A DNA stretch of 64,000 nucleotides from Paucibacter sp. KCTC 42545 (GTDB taxonomy: Bacteria; Pseudomonadota; Gammaproteobacteria; Burkholderiales; Burkholderiaceae_C), in NCBI RefSeq assembly GCF_001477625.1, contig NZ_CP013692.1, positions 930,001 through 994,000 on the forward strand, read 5' to 3'. Positions 38,937 through 57,790 of this stretch are shown here, piece after piece; positions within the stretch are counted from its first letter, which is position 1; every line of letters begins with the position of its first letter. The notes under the pieces were generated by a model. It searched no databases, had not been told where the DNA came from, and saw only the letters and a list, made by a program, of their open reading frames with translations. Position numbers and translations under genes: made by a program.

Positions 38937-39012
<76 letters not shown>

Positions 39013-39024
39013 AAATTTGAAAGA

Positions 39025-39048
39025 AAGGAAGCTCAGGCTTCCTTTTTT
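39025..39048 (+). terminator. Terminator after tRNA-Gly copy 1
   Basis: The stem AAGGAAGC / GCTTCCTT with loop TCAG is followed by TTTT. A very similar hairpin ends the third tRNA-Gly, consistent with duplication. Confidence 0.8.
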
Positions 39049-39087
39049 AGTCCGGGTTTCACCAAGACCCAGACTAACAGTTCTTAA

Positions 39088-39161
39088 GGCGCGATAGCAA
39101 AGCGGTTATGCCCCGGATTGCAAATCCGGTTAGTCCAGTTCGACTCTGGATCGCGCCTCCA
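39088..39161 (+). tRNA. tRNA-Cys(GCA)
   Basis: 74 bases, acceptor stem GGCGCGA / TCGCGCC, anticodon GCA in GGATTGCAAATCC, CCA encoded. Confidence 0.95.
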
Positions 39162-39171
39162 AGAAATCACT

Positions 39172-39247
<76 letters not shown>

Positions 39248-39312
39248 GAGAAATCTGGGGAATTTTTAGTACCAAGCATGGCAGTGAGTCGCAAGTCTCA
39301 TTGACCGGCAAT

Positions 39313-39388
<76 letters not shown>

Positions 39389-39394
39389 AATACG

Positions 39395-39423
39395 AAAAGG
39401 GAAGCCATACGGCTTCCCTTTTT
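39395..39423 (+). terminator. Terminator after tRNA-Gly copy 3
   Basis: The stem AAAAGGGAAGCC / GGCTTCCCTTTT with loop ATAC runs into further T residues. Confidence 0.85.
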
Positions 39424-39476
39424 CAGTTGGAAAATCAGCTTTGCGATGCGGTGATAATCTCGCGCAAAGCACGCCC

Positions 39477-39532
39477 GCCCGGGTGGTGAAATTGGTAGAC
39501 GCAGCGGACTTAAAATCCGCTATCCGGCTGTT
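39477..39532 (+). pseudogene. Truncated tRNA-Leu(TAA), 5' part only
   Basis: The acceptor 5' strand GCCCGGG, a D-arm (GTGGTGAAATTGGTAGACG) and a complete anticodon arm with TAA (GCGGACTTAAAATCCGC) are intact. After that no T-arm GTTCGA block and no CCCGGGC-ACCA 3' acceptor strand can be found. It is the left-over 5' half of a tRNA-Leu whose 3' part was displaced. It shares a 13-base core (GGACTTAAAATCC) with the intact tRNA-Leu 121 bases on. Confidence 0.85.
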
Positions 39533-39597
39533 ATTGCTTAGTTGACGAGATTCGGCTGAATCCATAGTATGTACACATCATCATTGATGTGTCCGTT

Positions 39598-39684
39598 GCC
39601 GGCGTGGCGAAATTGGTATACGCAAGGGACTTAAAATCCCTCTTCTTTGCGGAAATGCGGGTTCAAGTCCCGCCGCCGGCACCA
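39598..39684 (+). tRNA. tRNA-Leu(TAA), intact and probably island-borne
   Basis: 87 bases with a perfect acceptor stem GCCGGCG / CGCCGGC, anticodon TAA, class II variable arm, T-arm GGGTTCAAGTCCC and encoded CCA. The acceptor stem differs from the truncated tRNA-Leu just upstream, so it is a different gene rather than its restored 3' half. It abuts the recombinase operon and may have come in with it. Confidence 0.92.
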
Positions 39685-47071: not shown

Positions 47072-47245
47072 CTAGCACAGAGTCTGGTGGATTGCTACCC
47101 CTGCAAGATGGGGGAGTGCGAGTTCGTGATTTTGCCGTTAGATTTGTCATACGGTCAGCAGTTCATGAGCAAAGTCATGGAGTGCCAGCAAAGTTGCTTC
47201 GGCTTCTTTGCGATCAGGACAAGGCTCATACCCAAATGGGGAGGG

Positions 47246-47359
47246 CCTGAATCGCAAACCCGGCGCGAGCCGGCGACGCAAAGCCTCCGGTGTTGGAGGG
47301 TTCCGTTTTAAACACGGGACCTTCGCAAGATAGCGGGGTTGCCGGTCTGAGTTCCTCAG
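47246..47359 (+). promoter_or_regulatory. Cyclic-di-GMP-I (GEMM-I) riboswitch, copy 1
   Basis: The sequence has the GEMM-I core: TCGCAAACC, a P2-type hairpin capped by a GCGA tetraloop (CCGG-CGCGAG-CCGG), GACGCAAAGCCTCCGG, a longer side arm with TTTTAAACACGGG, and AGATAGCGGGGTTGCCG. A small hairpin CTGAG-TTC-CTCAG (47347-47359) follows as possible expression platform. It lies 60 bases upstream of the truncated adaptor gene. No terminator T-run is visible, so translational or antitermination control is possible. Confidence 0.88.
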
Positions 47360-47419
47360 GTCGTCATCAAGCTCAGCGTTAGTCGGCCCGCCTTCGAATC
47401 CTTTGAGGGTTCAGAGAGC

Positions 47420-48212
47420 ATGGCTTTGACGCAAGCGTTGTTCAGGCAAGAAGTGATGCAGGCCAGCCAAGCTCAATGGCTCGGCAGTATTCGCATCGGC
47501 CGCCCACCCAGCTTTGCCTGGGTCACCGGCTTGTCACTTTGCATGGCAGTGGCCTTGGTGAGCTACGCCATCTGGGGTGAAGTGACCCGCAAGGCCAAGC
47601 TGCCAGGCCTGCTGATGCCGACAGCGGGCATGCTGACCGTCAGCGCCCCACAAGTCGGGGTTGTGACTGAGTTGCTGGTCAAGGAAGGTGAGTTGGTCGC
47701 AGCGGGTCAGCCGGTGATTCGGCTGCGAAGCGATCGCACCACATCGCTGGGTGATGCAGCAATCCTCAACGCCCAGGCCTTGGCTCAGCGCCGGCAAACG
47801 CTAGAAACCGAACGGCTACTGACGCAACAGCAGCAACGTCAACGACAGCAAGCGCTCAATGATCGACTGCGCAGCTTATCCGCCGAAGAACGTCAGGCTC
47901 AGGCTGAGCTGGAAACCAACCGTTTGCGAGCTGGCCTGGCGGCTAAGAGTCTGACCCGCTACGTCGAATTAGAGAAAGACAGCTTTGTCTCGGCCGTGCA
48001 ATTGCAGCAGAAGCAAGAAGAACTACTGGATGTGCAACTTCGTGAGCGCAACGCCGAGCGAAGCTTGGCCGCTCTGCAGCGCGACATTCAGGCAACCAAA
48101 GCAGAACTGCTCAACAACGAAACCAGTAGCAGCACCAGTCTGGCTCAAGTCGATCGTGGGCTGGCTAGCCTCAGCCAGGAATTCACTGAAAACGATGCAC
48201 GTGGTGGACTAA
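47420..48212 (+). pseudogene. HlyD/CvaA-type secretion adaptor, truncated
   Basis: About 264 codons match the intact adaptor at 52124 through its TM segment and coiled coil (SFAWVTGLSLCMAVALVSYAIWGEV; LTQQQQRQRQQALNDRLRSL; AVQLQQKQEELLDVQLRERN). The match stops after ENDARGGL, where a 73-bp MITE is inserted. The C-terminal beta domains are lost, so the protein should not work. It belongs to the decayed export operon 1. Confidence 0.92.
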
Positions 48213-48285
48213 GGATGGTGTTCAAAACCGGTAAAGCCGAGCTGTCGTCACCCCAGCTCGGCTTTACCGGTTTTGAACACCATCC
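48213..48285. mobile_element. 73-bp palindromic MITE related to the IS5 element
   Basis: It has two perfect 32-bp inverted arms (48213-48244 and 48254-48285) around a 9-base loop, ends GGATGGTGTTCAAAACC, and is flanked by the 4-base direct repeat CTAA (48209-48212, 48286-48289). The right arm and loop closely match the right end of the IS5 remnant at about 47029-47071, so it is a non-autonomous derivative. Confidence 0.92.
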
Positions 48286-48376
48286 CTAAAAATGTAGACG
48301 AATATTTGAAGAATATCCTTGTTTCTAAGGTTATTGGGTAAAGTTAGCCGTTTCTAGATTTTTTAAAGGTCGTACA

Positions 48377-48787
48377 ATGCGAATTATAGCTCCTGAAGAA
48401 ATTTCATCTGTCTCTGGTGGCGAGTTCGAGTGTGTTTTTCAACGTTTTTCTGATGATGGTGGTAGTGCCGGCGGTGGTGGATATGTTTCGTGTTGGGATT
48501 CAAGTATAGGAGTGTCATTCACCTTTACCGTTCAAGTCCTGTCAAATAATAGTACACAAATCACCGGCTACGCGAATGTCAATGGACAGACTGCGACCTA
48601 TACGACCAACTCTGCGCAACAACTTGGCGCATTTGTATTGGGAGCAGGAGTCACTGCAACAGTAGTCGGACTTGGTGGCGGCGCCACGTTAGCTGGGGCA
48701 GTTGGCCTTGCAGCGAAAACAGGCTATTCACAACTCTGGGGCATGGGGAATCAACGGCCTCGGATTCCTCAGCCGCCTAGCTATTAA
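48377..48787 (+). CDS. Double-glycine-leader peptide, glycine-rich (bacteriocin-like precursor)
   Basis: 136 residues; AAAGG lies 9 bases before the ATG. The leader MRIIAPEEISSVSGG fits the double-glycine consensus (hydrophobic at -12, E at -8, I at -7, V at -4, GG at -2/-1), so a C39 peptidase should cut after residue 15. The mature part has two Cys near its start, a Gly-rich stretch, a Ser/Thr/Asn-rich middle and a hydrophobic Gly/Ala segment (GAFVLGAGVTATVVGLGGGATLAGAVGLA), like class II microcins or pore-forming bacteriocins. The antibacterial role is inferred. It is AT-richer than the core genes. Confidence 0.75.
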   Translation: MRIIAPEEISSVSGGEFECVFQRFSDDGGSAGGGGYVSCWDSSIGVSFTFTVQVLSNNSTQITGYANVNGQTATYTTNSAQQLGAFVLGAGVTATVVGLGGGATLAGAVGLAAKTGYSQLWGMGNQRPRIPQPPSY

Positions 48788-48845
48788 CTTTTTGCATCAA
48801 CTTGTGAGGTTGAATATCGACATTGCAAGTTTTTATAGGTTTTAT

Positions 48846-49133
48846 ATGCGATACTTGTTTCCAGCTTTGATGGGTGTTATTGATTTTGTTGTCGTTGGGT
48901 TGGTTGCGTTGTTTTTTAGTAGGTTATTCAGGCGGAGGAATTCATCAAGAAGGCTTGCCTCATTTTCGTATTTGTGGTTATTTATTTTGCTAGTGGGGGT
49001 GGGTATGATCGCTATTGGTGGGGCGGTTTACGGGGATCATTTAATTGAATTGGGTTCGTCTCTGGTTTGTCTTGGAGTATTTTCTGGATTTTCAAAGCTA
49101 CTCAAGAAGAAGAGTGATGATTCTCCAGTCTGA
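48846..49133 (+). CDS. Small membrane protein, candidate immunity protein
   Basis: 95 residues from the ATG at 48846; an upstream ATG in the same frame (48702) would overlap the leader peptide gene and is less likely. About three hydrophobic segments are seen (LMGVIDFVVVGLVALFF, YLWLFILLVGVGMIAIGGAVY, SLVCLGVFSGF) with a basic loop RLFRRRNSSRR. No family is recognised. Its place between a double-glycine peptide and an exporter gene is where immunity genes usually sit. Its last 17 bases overlap the start of the exporter remnant. Confidence 0.55.
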   Translation: MRYLFPALMGVIDFVVVGLVALFFSRLFRRRNSSRRLASFSYLWLFILLVGVGMIAIGGAVYGDHLIELGSSLVCLGVFSGFSKLLKKKSDDSPV

Positions 49134-49184
49134 ATCCAGCGAATGCGCACTCGCAGCCCTTGCTATGATCTGCAGTGCACATGG
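49117..49184 (+). pseudogene. C39-peptidase ABC exporter, first 22 codons only
   Basis: The codons give MILQSESSECALAALAMICS, then AHG. This matches the N-terminus of the intact exporter at 55610 (VVLQSTSSECALASLAMISYAHG), including the catalytic Cys. The match ends exactly at the terminus of an IS6-type element at 49185. It shows that operon 1 once had its own exporter. Confidence 0.82.
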
Positions 49185-49440
49185 GGTTCTGTCGCATTAA
49201 GCGTTTGAGACAATGGCCGCCATGGACGATTTCCACAAAGTCGCAATCAACGCCGCCCTTCGCCGAGTGCTCAAGCGCATGCACTTTCCGCTGGAAATCA
49301 TGATGACTTGCGTGCGCTGGTACGCGGCTTATCCATTGAGCTTTCGCCACCTGGAGGAAATGATGTCCGAGCGCGGCGTGTCGGTCGATCATGCGACGGT
49401 CCATCGCTGGGCGGTCAAGATGTTGCCGGTGTTGGCCAAG
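49185..49440 (+). mobile_element. IS6-family remnant with transposase N-terminus
   Basis: The left end GGTTCTGTCGCATTAAGCG is followed by a transposase start at 49213 or 49222 (FPLEIMMTCVRWYAAYPLSFRHLEEMM, VDHATVHRWAVKMLPVLAK), the N-terminal zinc-finger/HTH region of IS6/IS26-like transposases. Similarity ends at about 49440, so the DDE domain and right end are missing. 49440-49620 shows nothing recognisable. Confidence 0.78.
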
Positions 49441-51668: not shown

Positions 51669-51949
51669 GGGCCTCTTCCTTTCGGGTTGGGCCGCATTCT
51701 CTGATTTCAGTTGTCTACTTGGTGGGGGAGCTTACGCGACCTCGCTAAGTTACCGTTCCTTGGATTGAGTGTCGCTTTATCACATGGCGACATATTCTGA
51801 TACCCCCTCGATGTAGGGCCTACCAAGTTTTCAGTTCGAAAGTTAGATTGCTCGCCAGATCAGCATTTCATGAACAAAGTCATGGATTGCCAACAAAGTT
51901 GCATTGGCAGCTTTGGAATCAAGACAAGGCCGACGCCTCTTAGGGCAGG

Positions 51950-52063
51950 TCTTAATCGCAAACCCGGCGCGAGCCGGCGACGCAAAGCCTCCGGTGTTGG
52001 AGGGTTCCGTTTTAAACACGGGACCTTCGCAAGATAGCGGGGTTGCCGGTCTGAGTTCCTCAG
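51950..52063 (+). promoter_or_regulatory. Cyclic-di-GMP-I (GEMM-I) riboswitch, copy 2
   Basis: It is nearly identical to copy 1 over the aptamer and the following ~75 bases, with the same GCAAACC, GCGA-capped hairpin, GACGCAAAGCCTCCGG and AGATAGCGGGGTTGCCG elements. It precedes the intact adaptor gene by about 60 bases. The 215 bases between the IS end (51735) and the aptamer must hold the operon promoter; no convincing -35/-10 pair was picked out. c-di-GMP binding would couple expression of the exporter operon to the surface/biofilm signalling state. Confidence 0.9.
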
Positions 52064-52123
52064 GTCGTCATCAAGCTCAGCGTTAGTCGGCCCGCTTTCG
52101 AATCCTTTGAGGGTTCAGAGAGC

Positions 52124-53404
52124 ATGGCTTTGACGCAAGCGTTGTTCAGGGAAGAGGTGATGGAGGCCAGCCAAGCTCAATGGCTCGGCAGCATTCGCAT
52201 TGGCCGGCCACCCAGTTTTGCATGGGTCACCGGTATCTCGCTGAGCATGGCAGTGGCCTTGGTGAGCTACGCCATCTGGGGTGAAGTGACCCGCAAGGCC
52301 AAGCTGCCAGGGTTGCTGATGCCGACGGCCGGCATGTTGACTGTGAGTGCGCCGCAGGCTGGCGTCTTGACGGAGGTGCTGGTTCATGAGGGTGAACTGG
52401 TGCAAGCCGGGCAGGTGTTGATGCGCTTGAAGAGTGAGCGCAACACTCCCTTGGGCGATGCTGCCACCCTCAACGCCCAAGCCTTGGCCCAACGCCGTGC
52501 CAGCTTGGACACCGAACGCTTGTTGACGCAACAGCAGCAACGCCAGCGTCAAGACGCTTTGAATGACCGGCTGCGCAGTCTGGCCGCCGAGGAACGCCAA
52601 GCGCAAGGCGAGCTGGATGCAAACCGCCTGCGCGCTGACTTGGCCGCCAAGAGCTTGGCCCGTTACACCGAACTAGAGAAAGAAAGCTTTGTCTCCGCCG
52701 TGCAATTGCAGCAAAAGCAGGAAGAGTTGCTGGATGTACAACTGCGCGAGCGCAATGCCGAGCGAAGCCTAGCAGCCTTGCAAAGAGGCATTCAAGCCAC
52801 TCGCGCCGAAATGCTCAACAACGAAACTGCCAGCCACACCAACCTGGCTCAGGTGGATCGCGGACTGGCCAGCCTCAGCCAAGAGACCACAGAAAACGAC
52901 GCTCGGGGTGGACTGACGCTGATGGCCTCCCAGGCAGGCCGAGTCACTGCGCTCGACATTCACCCTGGTCAAGCTGTGCAAGCAGGTCAAACCTTGCTGA
53001 GCTTGGTGCCAGAAAGTAAAGGACACGCAAATTCAGAGTTGGAAGCCCAACTTTACGCCCCCAGCCGAACGGCAGGCTTTGTAAAGCCCGGTCAGTCCGT
53101 TTGGCTGCGTTACGCGGCGTACCCCTACCAAAAGTTCGGAATGGCAGAAGGTGCAGTGAAAAGCATCAGCCAGACGCCGATTGCCGCGCAGGATTTACCA
53201 GTTGGTCAGGGCCAGGCGCTCATGGCGGCGGCGCAGACAAATGAGCCGCTTTATCGAATCAGCGTGAAGTTAAAAAAGCAAGAAATCAAAACCTATGGCA
53301 GCACTCAGGTGCTCAAAGTCGGCATGGCCCTCGAAGCGGATGTGACCCAGGACAAAAGAGCAATCTGGGAATGGATATTAGAGCCGCTACTTACGTTGAA
53401 ATGA
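52124..53404 (+). CDS. HlyD/CvaA-type secretion adaptor (membrane fusion protein)
   Basis: 426 residues with CAGAGAG before the ATG. One TM segment (SFAWVTGISLSMAVALVSYAIWG, about 30-53) is followed by a lipoyl half (MLTVSAPQAGVLTEVLVHEGELVQAG), a long coiled coil (residues ~130-270), the second lipoyl half and a beta-barrel (SVWLRYAAYPYQKFGMAEGAVKSI). Like colicin V CvaA it should bridge the C39 ABC exporter to an outer-membrane TolC-type channel; no TolC gene is in the window. It is the first gene behind the riboswitch. Confidence 0.93.
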   Translation: MALTQALFREEVMEASQAQWLGSIRIGRPPSFAWVTGISLSMAVALVSYAIWGEVTRKAKLPGLLMPTAGMLTVSAPQAGVLTEVLVHEGELVQAGQVLMRLKSERNTPLGDAATLNAQALAQRRASLDTERLLTQQQQRQRQDALNDRLRSLAAEERQAQGELDANRLRADLAAKSLARYTELEKESFVSAVQLQQKQEELLDVQLRERNAERSLAALQRGIQATRAEMLNNETASHTNLAQVDRGLASLSQETTENDARGGLTLMASQAGRVTALDIHPGQAVQAGQTLLSLVPESKGHANSELEAQLYAPSRTAGFVKPGQSVWLRYAAYPYQKFGMAEGAVKSISQTPIAAQDLPVGQGQALMAAAQTNEPLYRISVKLKKQEIKTYGSTQVLKVGMALEADVTQDKRAIWEWILEPLLTLK

Positions 53405-53474
53405 AATCACCAAAGAATACCGCAACCAGAATCGGGAGTCCCGACCGACCTTTCGGGAAATCATTGGAGACCCT

Positions 53475-53840
53475 ATGAGGAAGCTCACCACCGTAGAACT
53501 TGATTCAGTTTCTGGAACAGGAACAATCACACTTGAAAACGTCCAGCTAGTTCGCCCTATCGAGCCTACAGGCATAGCCCCCCTGGTGTTGGCAGAATTG
53601 CAAAATGAATTCAGAAACTATGACCTATATGAGACCAAAGTATACAGAAAATTAATTATGAGCGAAATTCCGGCATCATGGAATCTAGGTAATGCGCTAG
53701 GGCTGAATGGGAGTACCATAAACATCTCAAATTCAAGCATAAAATTATCCGCAGCCTATGATGCGCAAAGCAGACTCTCACATTCAACTACGTGGCAAGA
53801 AGTAGAACCCCAGGAACCCAAATCCCTTGATAAAACCTGA
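53475..53840 (+). CDS. Leader-peptide protein A, new paralogous family
   Basis: 121 residues, GGAGA 8 bases before the ATG. The N-terminus MRKLTTVELDSVSGT fits the double-glycine-type leader with L at -12, E at -8, L at -7, V at -4, G at -2, but T instead of G/A at -1. The mature part (~106 residues) is polar and aligns by eye with the next gene: LVRPIEPTG, LIMSEIPASW, GLNGSTI, KLSAAYDAQS. No Cys and no transmembrane segment. Family not recognised. AT-rich coding sequence suggests transfer from another source. Presumed substrate of the exporter at 55610. Confidence 0.75.
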   Translation: MRKLTTVELDSVSGTGTITLENVQLVRPIEPTGIAPLVLAELQNEFRNYDLYETKVYRKLIMSEIPASWNLGNALGLNGSTINISNSSIKLSAAYDAQSRLSHSTTWQEVEPQEPKSLDKT

Positions 53841-53924
53841 AATAGTTGCTCATTAACAACCATTTATATTTCCAGAATATCTGGAGGCGGAATTCCTGAC
53901 TGCGTCTTCAGGAAAAGGAGAGCT

Positions 53925-54290
53925 ATGAGAAGCGTATCGACACATGAACTAAGCTACGTTAGCGGAGCTGGTAATGGCCTTGACAATGGCACCGTTCTGC
54001 TGGTCAAGCCAGTCGAACCAGTTCAATTAGAAAGAGTGGTAATTGAAGGCGTCCGAAGTTTTTGCCCCCCAGGATTTACCTATGGAACAAACACGGATCA
54101 TACGCTAGTGATGAACGACGTCCCCTCCGCGTGGGAAGTTGAAGGGTCGGGGGGGCTCAACGGTAAAGTTGTTGCTTTTGGAGATGCCAGCTTCAAACTA
54201 GCTGTTACATACGACTCAGCCAAACAAACAATGACAGTGTATTGTAAAGCGATTCGACCTGTGCCCCCGCGTGGCACCCAGATTCCTTGA
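53925..54290 (+). CDS. Leader-peptide protein B, paralogue of protein A
   Basis: 121 residues, AAAAGGAGAG just before the ATG (a strong ribosome-binding site). The leader MRSVSTHELSYVSGA fits the C39-processing consensus (V -12, E -8, L -7, V -4, GA at -2/-1). Blocks shared with protein A are LVKPVEPVQ, LVMNDVPSAW, GLNGKVV and KLAVTYDSAK. Unlike A it has two Cys (SFCPPGF and VYCKAIR) that could form a disulfide after export. Function unknown; two related secreted proteins in tandem suggest a two-component effector, which is inference. Confidence 0.75.
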   Translation: MRSVSTHELSYVSGAGNGLDNGTVLLVKPVEPVQLERVVIEGVRSFCPPGFTYGTNTDHTLVMNDVPSAWEVEGSGGLNGKVVAFGDASFKLAVTYDSAKQTMTVYCKAIRPVPPRGTQIP

Positions 54291-54389
54291 GATGGTCTAA
54301 AGGTTGGGCGCCGACGCGCGCCCAATTTTTATAGCCAGGCATGGCCTTAAACAGCCACCAAGTTTCTTAACTGGTAACTAATTGCGATC

Positions 54390-55580
54390 ATGAGACGTTG
54401 CATCTTTCTAGTCTTGATCTATTGTTTCTTGATTTCTTGCAATGCGCAAACAATTCAACAAAGCCAACAACTAATTACATACAAAATTAGTGATGGCGTG
54501 GGAATTTGGGAGCAGCCCGGCCACAAACTCGGAACTATCCTTTTTGTCCCCGGCAGCGATGGAATGGAGGCTAGTTTTTATTGCTTTAAAAACAATTTTT
54601 GTCAATTCAAAGAAGATCGACTTATTGATCCACTCATAGTAACTTTACTAGAGCAGGGTTGGCGCGTCGCAAGTTTCAGTTTTGGCGGGATTAAATCAAT
54701 ACAGAATTGTCTCGCAGAAAATTCACAACAGCTCGAAAAGTGGAAATATATTCAAGAAATTTGCCTACAGAAAAGTGACTTCGAAAAACAAACGCTTATT
54801 GACTTTGAATTCGACACGGCAGAGGCTATTCGGCTAATCGAGGAAAGATTTGCAGGCCCCCTTCTTTTGGTCGGCGACTCACTAGGCGGCTTCCTCGCAT
54901 CAAAAATAATCAGTCAAAAAAGGGCAAAAATCGATGCGTTTATCGGAATAGCCTCACCGACAAAAAGCTTGCAAGATACGATTCTCTATCAAAAGAATTA
55001 CCCTGCAATATTTCATGCGGTTAATGAACTGATAAGAAGCAACAAACAGGGTCGGATATTCAGTCGCATCGAAATTTACAACACAGCAAAAGCGGCCGAT
55101 CCAGGAGAAGTCGATGAATTTGAAGCCCAAGTATTGAACGCAATTCAACCCGCTGGCGATAAATACACGAAAGAATTTTTTGATATCGTACAAGGCTGGT
55201 TCATCAGTCGAAGAATGGATAAAATGAAATCTACAATGACAGAGGATTGGCCGGAAAATTTAATATTTACAGGGACGGAATATCAAAAACGCAGATATCT
55301 ACAGTGGAGCACAGACACAACGCCCATTTCTGACCGGTTGAGCACTTTTGAAGGCCCAGTATTTTTTGTGCATGGCAGCTTGGATTGGCTCGCAGAGCCT
55401 CCATCAAAGGACCTTTGCAACGAAATATTTCCTAGATCACGATATGCGCCGTGCGAGGTAAGAATTATTGAAAACAGTCTTCACGGGGGCAGAACATCTA
55501 ACCTTGATGAGGCTTTGCGCTGGACACGGGAAATACTTGAGGTTGTCAATAAATCAGCGCAATGGATAAGCCACAAATAA
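54390..55580 (+). CDS. Alpha/beta-hydrolase lipoprotein in the export operon
   Basis: 396 residues. The N-terminus has a lipoprotein signal with lipobox LISC (Cys17). The catalytic triad of an alpha/beta hydrolase is readable: nucleophile Ser164 in VGDSLGGF, Asp332 in FVHGSLDWLAEP, His365 in NSLHGGRT, plus an oxyanion-type LFVPGSDG at 51-58. It should be a periplasmic, membrane-anchored serine hydrolase; family and substrate are not recognised. It lies between the leader-protein genes and the exporter gene. Possible roles are immunity (destroying or modifying the effector's target) or effector maturation; both are inference. The gene is AT-rich. Confidence 0.8.
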   Translation: MRRCIFLVLIYCFLISCNAQTIQQSQQLITYKISDGVGIWEQPGHKLGTILFVPGSDGMEASFYCFKNNFCQFKEDRLIDPLIVTLLEQGWRVASFSFGGIKSIQNCLAENSQQLEKWKYIQEICLQKSDFEKQTLIDFEFDTAEAIRLIEERFAGPLLLVGDSLGGFLASKIISQKRAKIDAFIGIASPTKSLQDTILYQKNYPAIFHAVNELIRSNKQGRIFSRIEIYNTAKAADPGEVDEFEAQVLNAIQPAGDKYTKEFFDIVQGWFISRRMDKMKSTMTEDWPENLIFTGTEYQKRRYLQWSTDTTPISDRLSTFEGPVFFVHGSLDWLAEPPSKDLCNEIFPRSRYAPCEVRIIENSLHGGRTSNLDEALRWTREILEVVNKSAQWISHK

Positions 55581-55609
55581 GCGAGAACCGCGTGACCATT
55601 CATTAAATT

Positions 55610-57736
55610 ATGGCTATAAAAGTAGTACTGCAAAGCACCTCGTCAGAATGCGCATTGGCAAGTCTTGCCATGATTAGCTACGCTCACGGGCTAAATCTAG
55701 ATCTTGCTGAGTTGCGGCGTCGCTTTTCAGTCAGCATCAAAGGTGCCACACTTCAACAACTGATTGCCCATGCGGCAGTGCTAGGCTTTTCCTCGAGACC
55801 CATCCGTCTCGAACTAGATGAACTTCATGAGTTACAAACACCCTGCATTCTCCATTGGGATTTAAACCATTTCGTTGTACTCAAGAAGGTCACGCGATCT
55901 GGCAAAGCCGTCATAATTTTGGATCCTGCAGTAGGCGAGCGTCGCCTGAGTATGATTGAGGTTTCTCGCCACTTTACTGGCGTGGCTTTGGAGTTGAGCC
56001 CAAATGCAGAGTTCAAGTCCCAAGCCCCGGCGAAGCAAGTGTCATTGAGTGCGCTGACAGGAAAAGTTTCAGGCCTTAAACGATCGCTATTCCAAATCTT
56101 CGCGGTGACCGTGGTGCTGGAAATGTTTGTGATTGTTGCCCCGCTGTTTAATCAGATGGTAGTTGACGATGTACTAACGTCAGGGGACAGAAACATGCTC
56201 GGGGTGCTAGTCATTGGTTTTGGCCTGCTCTTGCTAGTGCAACCGGCGATTGGCTTAGCCCGTTCTTGGATGGTGATGGTTCTAGGCCAAACTCTCTCAC
56301 TGCAATGGACTGGAAACGTGTTTTCTCACCTGGTGCGTCTGCCAGTCGACTTCTTTGAGAAACGCAACCTCGGCGATATCACGTCGCGATTTGGTTCAGT
56401 CGGGGCAATTCAACATACCCTGACCACAGCAGTGATTGAGGCAGTGCTGGACGGTCTAATGGCTTTGGCTGCCTTGGTAATGATGTTGATCTATGCACCA
56501 ACCTTGTGCGCGTTGACAGTGACCGCTGTCGCAGCCTACGGCCTCCTGCGCTGGGCGGCCTACCGGCCCTTCCGTGACGCAGCCGCCGTGCGCCTGGTGG
56601 TCGCCGCCAAAGAGAACACCCATTTTCTGGAAACCCTGCGCGCCATCACCCCGCTCAAACTATTCGGACGGGAAGAAGAGCGCCGCGCCCGTTGGCAGAA
56701 CCTGATCGTGGATGTGCAAAACCGCGATGTGCGCACGGCCAAGATGAGCATTGGCTTTTCGACGGCCAACACCTTCATCTTCGGGCTGGAGAACTTGCTG
56801 GTGCTGTGGCTGGGTGCCAAGCTCATCATGACGGGCCAGCAAGCCGGGACGGTGACGATGACCGTGGGCATGCTGTTCGCCTACCTCAGTTACAAAGGCC
56901 AGTTCACCGGCCGAGTATCTGCACTGATCAACTACGCCGTAGAACTCAAGATGCTGGGCCTGCATGCGGAGCGCCTGGCCGACATTGCCTTGGAGCCGCC
57001 CGAAAAGGACGACGCGCCTGCCAACGATTTGCCGCACTTGGTGCCCAGCATCGAACTCAAAGACGTCAGTTTCCGTTACGGCGAGGGTGAGCCCTGGATT
57101 CTGCGCAATGCCAACTTCCGCGTGGAAGCGGGTGAGAGCGTAGCCGTCACCGGCCCCTCCGGCGCAGGCAAGACGACCCTGCTCAAGATTGCGTTGGGCC
57201 TGCTCAAACCCAGCGAGGGCGAGGTCTTGTTCGGTGGCATGCCGGTCCGCCAATTGGGCCTGCAGAACTATCGCCGTCAGATCGGCACGGTGATGCAGGA
57301 AGATGCTTTGCTAACGGGCTCACTCAGCGACAACATCGCCTTCTTCGATGTGCAGCCCGATCAGGCCCGAATTCAGGCCTGCGCGGAATTGGCGCAACTT
57401 CATGCAGACATTTGCCGCATGCCCATGGGCTACCAGACCTTGGTGGGCGACTTGGGCTCGGGTCTGTCGGGAGGACAGAAACAGCGGCTCTTGCTGGCAC
57501 GGGCCTTGTACAAGATGCCGCGCATCTTGGCTTTGGACGAAGCGACGAGTCATTTGGATTTGCAGAACGAGCGCGCAGTGACTGCGGCATTGAGCAGTTT
57601 GCCTCTGACTCGATTGATCATCGCCCACCGACCGGAAACGATTGCTGGCGCACAGCGGGTGGTGATCGTGCGTGACGCGCAAGTGATGGAACTTGCGAGA
57701 GCTGTACCCGCCTCTACTGAAACTTGGCAGGCGTAG
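55610..57736 (+). CDS. C39-peptidase ABC exporter (LagD/CvaB type)
   Basis: 708 residues. The N-terminal C39 peptidase has catalytic Cys14 (STSSECALASLAM), His87 (NHFVVLKK) and Asp105 (LDPAVGE). Six membrane helices follow (residues ~155-430). The ATPase has Walker A GPSGAGKTT at about 514, LSGGQKQRLLLARALY at about 618 and Walker B ILALDEATSH. It cuts double-glycine leaders while exporting the cargo across the inner membrane. From about 56540 on the codon use is much GC-richer than before, so the gene looks like a mosaic of foreign and host-like halves. Confidence 0.95.
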   Translation: MAIKVVLQSTSSECALASLAMISYAHGLNLDLAELRRRFSVSIKGATLQQLIAHAAVLGFSSRPIRLELDELHELQTPCILHWDLNHFVVLKKVTRSGKAVIILDPAVGERRLSMIEVSRHFTGVALELSPNAEFKSQAPAKQVSLSALTGKVSGLKRSLFQIFAVTVVLEMFVIVAPLFNQMVVDDVLTSGDRNMLGVLVIGFGLLLLVQPAIGLARSWMVMVLGQTLSLQWTGNVFSHLVRLPVDFFEKRNLGDITSRFGSVGAIQHTLTTAVIEAVLDGLMALAALVMMLIYAPTLCALTVTAVAAYGLLRWAAYRPFRDAAAVRLVVAAKENTHFLETLRAITPLKLFGREEERRARWQNLIVDVQNRDVRTAKMSIGFSTANTFIFGLENLLVLWLGAKLIMTGQQAGTVTMTVGMLFAYLSYKGQFTGRVSALINYAVELKMLGLHAERLADIALEPPEKDDAPANDLPHLVPSIELKDVSFRYGEGEPWILRNANFRVEAGESVAVTGPSGAGKTTLLKIALGLLKPSEGEVLFGGMPVRQLGLQNYRRQIGTVMQEDALLTGSLSDNIAFFDVQPDQARIQACAELAQLHADICRMPMGYQTLVGDLGSGLSGGQKQRLLLARALYKMPRILALDEATSHLDLQNERAVTAALSSLPLTRLIIAHRPETIAGAQRVVIVRDAQVMELARAVPASTETWQA

Positions 57737-57759
57737 TTCTTGACGACCAAACACCCAAT

Positions 57760-57790
57760 GAAGCCCGGCCTTGCGCCGGGCTTCGTCTTT
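57760..57790 (+). terminator. Rho-independent terminator of export operon 2
   Basis: The stem GAAGCCCGGC / GCCGGGCTTC with loop CTTGC is followed by GTCTTT, 24 bases after the exporter stop. Confidence 0.8.

Follow-up and report, generated by a model that had tools for sequence, protein, structure and literature searches.

The closest described systems to the locus analysed here are the GEMM-I riboswitches and the class II microcins. The locus lies in a stretch of 64,000 bases (the window, positions 930001-994000) of the one-contig Burkholderiales genome of Paucibacter sp. KCTC 42545 (5,169,161 bases, 5.17 Mb). Here, a GEMM-I aptamer is found 73 bases before the start of a gene for an HlyD-family adaptor, followed by genes for two leader-bearing small proteins, an alpha/beta-hydrolase lipoprotein and a C39 ATP-binding cassette (ABC) exporter. 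This gene order had been given by an earlier sequence-only reading of the window, and Pfam matches and the reading of open reading frames confirm it. We letter the operon cassette B among the sister cassettes and remnants A-G of the same genome, to which we add a further remnant H. Labels such as L046 (loci) and G107 (genomes) are ours.

The aptamer resembles the c-di-GMP-I riboswitch Vc2 (RF01051), which senses cyclic di-GMP (c-di-GMP), in its fold, the P2 and P3 cores, A47, C92, the interhelical C44-G83 contact and the GNRA loop of P2. It differs from Vc2 by a C at position 20, a C.C outer P2 pair, a long P3, a P1 that is shifted by one base in our reading, and its location before an export operon. 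The GEMM-Ib riboswitch of Geobacter, which senses 3',3'-cyclic GMP-AMP (cGAMP), is altered at the same base 20, and the decayed copy G has the A of that class; however, the five other copies here have C rather than A, and no Hypr signature is present in the 28 GGDEF domains read. The variants c-di-GMP-I-GGC (RF03167) and c-di-GMP-I-UAU, whose names presumably state the three core bases, likewise combine the GEMM-I architecture with an altered core, whereas the core here is C-A-C and RF03167 reaches 40.3 bits against a cut-off of 59.

Like the class II microcins MccV, MccH47 and MccE492, the operon combines double-glycine leaders, an HlyD adaptor and a C39 exporter, and sister cassettes contain HlyC-like and MchC-like genes. 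In contrast to these microcins, several of which are iron-regulated (PMC10233263), the operon has a riboswitch leader, longer cargo, a hydrolase lipoprotein where the known immunity protein stands, and a history of serial duplication with cargo exchange. The NHLM/NHLP bacteriocin export systems (TIGR03796, TIGR03794) share the exporter and adaptor superfamilies, but the scores (443 vs 853.3 and 88.8 vs 156.2) are well under the NCBIfam cut-offs.

With slightly more than even confidence, we read the locus as a duplicated, cargo-swapped class II microcin-type export cassette under a variant of the GEMM-I riboswitch. The sequence-only reading had suggested that it may be a new system. For the export part this goes too far, as such systems are known, whereas the riboswitch coupling and the variant core were not found in print: the literature searched contained no GEMM-I variant that controls C39 or microcin export.

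The aptamer and its operon

A covariance search, proposed with the sequence-only reading as a check on the aptamer, placed RF01051 above threshold (45.5 bits, gathering score 35), with an E-value of 1.1e-5 over the 64 kb. At curated thresholds the search reports this family; with relaxed filters and a 351-base stretch, the output named the clan variant RF03167 instead, chosen by E-value, with the sub-threshold score given above. Checked by alignment against the conserved GEMM-I positions (PMC3764141), the aptamer of cassette B has A47-A49, C44 and G83, G42, C92 and the GNRA loop in P2. Downstream, the 3' strand of P1 can form an alternative 8-bp hairpin (anti-P1) with 52059-52066, and all eight pairs are present in all six cassette copies, which also share the P2/P3 architecture. 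In copy G, the most divergent leader, the inner P3 helix folds with seven standard pairs. When copy G is read by hand against B without the MAFFT gap, both bases differ in one P3 pair and a single base differs in each of two others; in the gapped pair count, copies A and F have one non-standard pair each.

The motifs that the sequence-only reading had seen in the exporter were found again (Cys14, NHFVVL, LDPA, Walker A and LSGGQ), with Pfam scores for Peptidase_C39 (113.9 bits), ABC_membrane (123.4 bits) and ABC_tran (103.8 bits). Exporter residues 8-695 align to a chain of an ABC-type bacteriocin transporter (4ry2_A, E 5.7e-90). By Pfam and motifs, the operon thus contains the C39 ABC exporter and the membrane fusion protein of class II microcin systems, and the parts list of these systems fits exporter, adaptor, leader-bearing cargo and partner (PMC10233263).

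The two small proteins form a related pair (29% identity, E 2e-18), and their leaders end in VSGT (protein 1) and VSGA (protein 2). Neither has a match in Pfam, NCBIfam or PADLOC, nor a homologue among about 5.8 billion proteins in a search that needs shared 5-residue words. The same search found no homologue of the hydrolase and PADLOC gave nothing for it; its scores are just below the Pfam cut-offs (Hydrolase_4, 24.8 vs 27; Abhydrolase_1, 23.5 vs 25.8), and its GDSLG motif lies at residues 162-166. As a guess, this lipoprotein is the immunity candidate of cassette B. The promoter is presumably located in the upstream block that is common to six leaders, although a promoter scan of this block (51860..51946) found no match to the sigma-70 consensus. 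The terminator-like hairpin behind the exporter is weak, as the consensus scan gave 9 sites in the region compared to 7.6 (sd 2.7) in shuffles.

Cassette copies and their cargo

The genome holds eight GEMM-I aptamers, and six of them precede a copy of this adaptor (both copies in the window and those at 1798384, 1802347, 4623300 and 4580643), so that the association is more than expected by chance. The remaining two precede genes that look like those for a secreted lipoprotein and a chemotaxis receptor. Together, the adaptor and exporter copies define seven related cassettes or remnants (A-G), including a cassette broken by an insertion sequence in the same window (A) that the sequence-only reading did not mention. 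The adaptor is intact in three of the six GEMM-I-bearing cassettes. No GEMM-I was found before the adaptor of cassette E, where a transposase-like gene lies.

When comparing cassette B to its sisters, 51860-53386 and 55646-57738 match at 69-87% DNA identity, and the middle (53387-55645) matches none of the sister cassettes. From these alignments, the flanks (leader RNA with adaptor, and exporter) appear constant and the middle appears exchanged. In cassette F, the N-terminal half of a C39 exporter is fused in frame to the C-terminal part of an HlyD adaptor (4626528-4628255, L047), which is the product expected from recombination between tandem cassettes.

The cargo and accessory genes of the relatives point to class II microcins. 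Cassette E, which has the same protein-coding flanks as B, encodes an HlyC-family protein (36.4 bits, cut-off 25), a TraB protein and a protein of 517 aa with PF02696 (SelO/YdiU) proteins among its homologues. Remnant H encodes a 501-aa protein that is 46% identical to the 517-aa protein, an HlyC-family protein (43.7 bits) and a glycine-zipper cargo with a match to Pfam Bacteriocin_IIc; neither the 501-aa nor the 517-aa protein itself reports a Pfam family. MchC is a distant SelO subfamily that matures microcins (PMC3281104). CPBP proteins are encoded in cassettes D and F; at the place of the partner, sister cassettes carry CPBP or small membrane-like proteins, and glycine-rich cargo is also present. 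The HlyC-family proteins of E and H also fit MceI, which we take to be HlyC-like. The second cargo of F is also found alongside its partner in another genus (L120; 47% and 32% identity), and the cargo recurs without the partner in the same-genus genome G013 (L096).

The sequence-only reading had called the secreted set possibly antibacterial. A predicted secreted protein set behind the GEMM-I riboswitch is well supported by the gene content, and its antibacterial role has gained weight from the HlyC-like, MchC/SelO-like and TraB proteins of E, the CPBP proteins of D and F and the Bacteriocin_IIc cargo of remnant H. Two observations on these relatives stand apart: the combination of TraB/GumN, HlyC-family and MchC/SelO-like proteins in E sits behind a cysteine-containing cargo with a core that lacks lysine, and remnant H resembles a maturation pair of the siderophore-microcin type (HlyC-family with MchC/SelO-like) in a Burkholderiales genome.

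The secreted proteins could instead be matrix, adhesion or signalling proteins that C39 exports in the biofilm state, with the hydrolase acting on them or on the envelope. Such roles would suit the cargo of cassette B, which lacks a glycine zipper of the bacteriocin kind and matches no family, and other GEMM-I of the genus precede genes for curlin-repeat proteins, peptidases and (by look) chemotaxis receptors; double-glycine peptides with roles in communication or biofilm have also been noted (PMC10233263). We nevertheless regard this explanation as rather unlikely, given the HlyC-like, MchC/SelO-like, TraB and CPBP genes and the glycine-rich cargo in sister cassettes with the same flanks, and the extreme turnover of cargo between similar flanks. 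Extreme cargo turnover is typical of antagonism genes.

Outside this genome, related adaptors (45-76% identical) occur in five of the 17 other genomes of the genus and, at 14 loci, in 13 further genomes of the family (250 searched, including our own and some of the genus). Many of these operons contain adaptor, leader-bearing cargo, accessory gene and exporter; in L112-L114 the adaptor adjoins the exporter with no cargo between them, and in L095 and L096 the contig stops before the exporter. The export cassette is thus shared by several genera of the family, whereas the riboswitch was probably acquired in the lineage studied here. The products of the accessory genes often look like periplasmic hydrolases, and immunity might take an enzymatic form. 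In L092, L116 and L119, a secreted protein that looks like ClpP/S49 takes the place of the hydrolase of B.

The base at position 20 and the ligand

The sequence-only reading had placed the operon under c-di-GMP control. Its GEMM-I assignment holds with RF01051 above cut-off, whereas c-di-GMP sensing cannot be assumed, since the base equivalent to G20 is C, a change that the sequence-only reading did not mention. The G of the c-di-GMP-specific class GEMM-Ia is thus absent at window position 51957, and the A of the cGAMP-specific class GEMM-Ib occurs only in the decayed copy G, the five other cassette copies having C. The core is C20/A47/C92, compared to G/A/C for c-di-GMP and A/A/C for cGAMP.

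We read position 20 in 59 GEMM-I loci of the genus and the order and dropped two of them (L131, L146), where a contig edge misplaced the start. Among the 57 readable loci, 46 have G, nine C and two A; the loci of the order were the best-scoring ones, which favours G. The nine C20 loci are the five cassette copies and four aptamers of other species in the genus. These four precede subtilase-like genes, as does a C20 aptamer of another genus (G107, 71.3 bits), so that C20 aptamers before such genes come from five species and two genera (L074, L077, L078, L079, L192). They are otherwise strong (63-73 bits), and the one of the five genes that was checked encodes a Peptidase_S8 protein (200.7 bits). 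An exact C20 pattern matched 22 times in 398 genomes of the phylum, six times with a paired P2 and a GNRA loop (five in our genome, one in G107), and an exact G20 pattern 41 times, 19 of them with both features; the patterns fix part of P2, so that other aptamers escape.

A GEMM-I variant with this core might sense another cyclic dinucleotide or a related nucleotide, to which the microcin-type operon would answer. In its favour, five of the six copies have C at position 20 and the remaining one has A, and the C20 of strong aptamers before subtilase-like genes in other species and in G107 argues against mere decay; furthermore, the G20 equivalent is regarded as one factor in selectivity and not as a strict filter (PMC9262584), and a G20A mutant reportedly binds cGAMP (PMC7288161). 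However, with a wild-type dissociation constant of 0.011 nM (PMC9049102), a 30,000-fold loss would give about 0.3 micromolar, at which c-di-GMP in cells could still be sensed, and the equivalent change in Vc1 leaves some c-di-GMP binding (PMC4744006). A source of cGAMP is also lacking among the domains read. The signature of Hypr cGAMP synthases is a Ser in the GGDEF motif. The genome has 59 GGDEF matches, and among the 30 best, all 28 readable ones (not L174 and L178) have the ordinary GHxxGD; a Hypr synthase was thus rejected as a candidate for these domains. We therefore consider a different ligand for the microcin-type operon doubtful, and the wider proposal, in which a natural C20/A47/C92 variant senses a ligand other than c-di-GMP before secreted proteases and cargo-swapped microcin cassettes alike, slightly more so. 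The likeliest ligand of the cassette B aptamer, in our analysis, would be c-di-GMP read at reduced affinity.

Under the favoured reading of a riboswitch-controlled microcin-type cassette, a cyclic dinucleotide would rise, most likely c-di-GMP read with reduced affinity, and the ligand would stabilise P1, block the anti-P1 hairpin and alter the expression of the whole operon. The adaptor and the C39 exporter, with a TolC-like channel, would then cleave off the leaders and export both small proteins, and the hydrolase lipoprotein would be the cassette's own partner, most likely for immunity. The likely biological sense would be a release of antagonistic proteins on the switch to an attached, high-signal state.

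Several findings weigh against this reading. For the aptamer, these are the C at the G20 equivalent, where a mutation of Vc2 lowers c-di-GMP binding 30,000-fold (PMC4744006), the C.C mismatch of the outer P2 pair, and the five non-standard pairs (two in P1, three in P3) that the MAFFT gapped alignment gives copy G. For the switch, the ribosome-binding region of B has the same predicted exposure (0.25) with P1 or anti-P1 enforced, and across the six copies this exposure changes by no more than 0.07 when the P1 fold is compared to the free or the anti-P1 fold. A translational switch, which we considered as a candidate, is thus unsupported by predicted exposure in the six copies, and we claim neither an ON nor an OFF switch; a consensus scan saw no intrinsic terminator after the aptamer.

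For the cargo, the cores in cassette B are, at about 105 aa, longer than those of known class II microcins (60-90 aa; PMC10233263), they contain no glycine zippers and match no family, and the leader of small protein 1 terminates in GT, without GG or GA. The Bacteriocin_IIc match is marginal (27.4 vs 27.1) and lies in remnant H, which has neither adaptor nor exporter and thus does not count as a cassette with the same flanks. Lastly, GEMM-I was found at none of the 19 related adaptor loci of other genomes (flanks of up to 1.5 kb; searched at cut-off for five loci, and at E <=0.5 for the other 14 and again for the contig of G015), so that conservation across species gives the coupling no support. 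We also surveyed 300 genomes of the order for RF01051 and PF03412, with the aptamers of our genome placed by the genome-wide search. By eye, among the matches listed, a GEMM-I up to 10 kb upstream of a C39 was seen in our genome only, and in G300 one lies within 5 kb on the downstream side; this survey is weak, and weaker than the test of the 19 loci, as aptamers as weak as those of the cassettes (E about 1e-7) fall outside the matches listed.

A relic riboswitch, taken up a single time in front of the adaptor, carried along through the cassette duplications and by now unable to sense anything, is improbable: this would explain why GEMM-I precedes this adaptor in our genome only, the changes of G20 and the outer P2 pair and the several broken cassettes, but the leader of copy G is still 82.6% identical over 350 bases although its adaptor is reduced to short fragments, A47, C92, C44-G83, the GNRA loop and anti-P1 are retained in all copies, and C20 aptamers persist in five other species.

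Few class II microcins have been confirmed outside the enterics (PMC10233263). A riboswitch family that reads the decision between attached and motile life would, in front of export cassettes, link bacterial antagonism directly to this choice by means of RNA. That unrelated middles lie between constant flanks suggests a route by which one regulated export platform gains new cargo. If the C20 variant does sense its own ligand, a small-molecule RNA sensor would directly gate interbacterial weapons, with cargo exchanged behind a constant block of riboswitch and adaptor. The C20 core offers a ready test of how ligand choice or affinity evolves in GEMM-I, and it is the part most likely to surprise.

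Coordinates and further observations

Table 1. Features of cassette B and related cassettes (w, window position; g, genome position)
Feature	Position	Strand	Basis or remark
Upstream block, common to six leaders	w 51860..51946	+	alignment, blastn coverage
P1 5' strand CAGGUC	w 51946..51951	+	pairs with 52048-52053; pairing checked in five copies
GEMM-I (c-di-GMP-I) aptamer, extended P3	w 51947..52050	+	RF01051, 45.5 bits
C equivalent to Vc2 G20, ligand-selectivity position	w 51957	+	RF01051 model position 11
A equivalent to Vc2 A47, kept	w 51984	+	alignment
C equivalent to Vc2 C92, kept	w 52046	+	alignment
Alternative hairpin GGUCUGAG-UUC-CUCAGGUC (anti-P1), captures P1 3' strand	w 52048..52066	+	folding
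Hairpin immediately 5' of start codon, over likely ribosome-binding site	w 52094..52123	+	folding
HlyD-family adaptor (membrane fusion protein), 426 aa	w 52124..53404	+	Pfam HlyD_3 59.6 bits, Biotin_lipoyl_2
Leader-bearing small protein 1, 121 aa, MRKLTTVELDSVSGT|G	w 53475..53840	+	starts MRKLTTVELDSVSGTG
Leader-bearing small protein 2, 121 aa, MRSVSTHELSYVSGA|G	w 53925..54290	+	starts MRSVSTHELSYVSGAG
Alpha/beta-hydrolase lipoprotein, 396 aa	w 54390..55580	+	sub-threshold Pfam, GDSLG nucleophile motif, lipobox-like LISC
C39 peptidase-containing ABC exporter, 708 aa	w 55610..57736	+	Pfam, motifs, 4ry2_A alignment
Terminator-like hairpin 3' of exporter	w 57767..57782	+	consensus scan, weak
Second GEMM-I aptamer, cassette A	w 47243..47346	+	RF01051, 44.0 bits; also C at G20 position
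Adaptor of A, homologous over first 268 residues, then cut off	w 47420..48289	+	match 977420-978223
Double-glycine-leader cargo of A (MRIIAPEEISSVSGG), 136 aa	w 48377..48787	+	no curated family above cut-off
Membrane-like small protein of A, possible immunity protein	w 48846..49133	+	reading; no curated family above cut-off
C39 exporter start in A, apparently cut by insertion element	w 49117..49187 (end approximate)	+	sequence reading
Cassette A	w 47243-49190		broken
Cassette B	see rows above		intact
Cassette C	g 1798384		adaptor frame broken
Cassette D	g 1802347		adaptor intact, exporter cut by insertion
Cassette E (L046)	g 1821761-1829756		adaptor and exporter intact, transposase-like gene just upstream
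Cassette F	g 4623300-4632466		adaptor intact, C39-HlyD fusion, second cargo, full exporter
Cassette G	g 4580643		adaptor in fragments
Remnant H (L186)	g 1007731-1011416		cargo and maturation-type genes between transposase-like genes, about 14 kb past window

Elsewhere in the genome (4364293-4367942, - strand, L048), a distinct C39 exporter (49% identical, with one in-frame TGA in the match) and adaptor (38% identical) lie beside a leader peptide of 60 aa in which a PRGGW motif is repeated. Adaptors at this level of identity (37-38%) are found in 14 of the 18 genomes of the genus. In another genome, GEMM-I aptamers occur in tandem (L073 and L080, G001:C23:503377-504299), each before one of two near-identical genes, and the one product that was checked has curlin repeats. 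In the window itself, five transfer RNA genes, three of them identical, are clustered at 38937-39681 beside tyrosine-recombinase-like genes.

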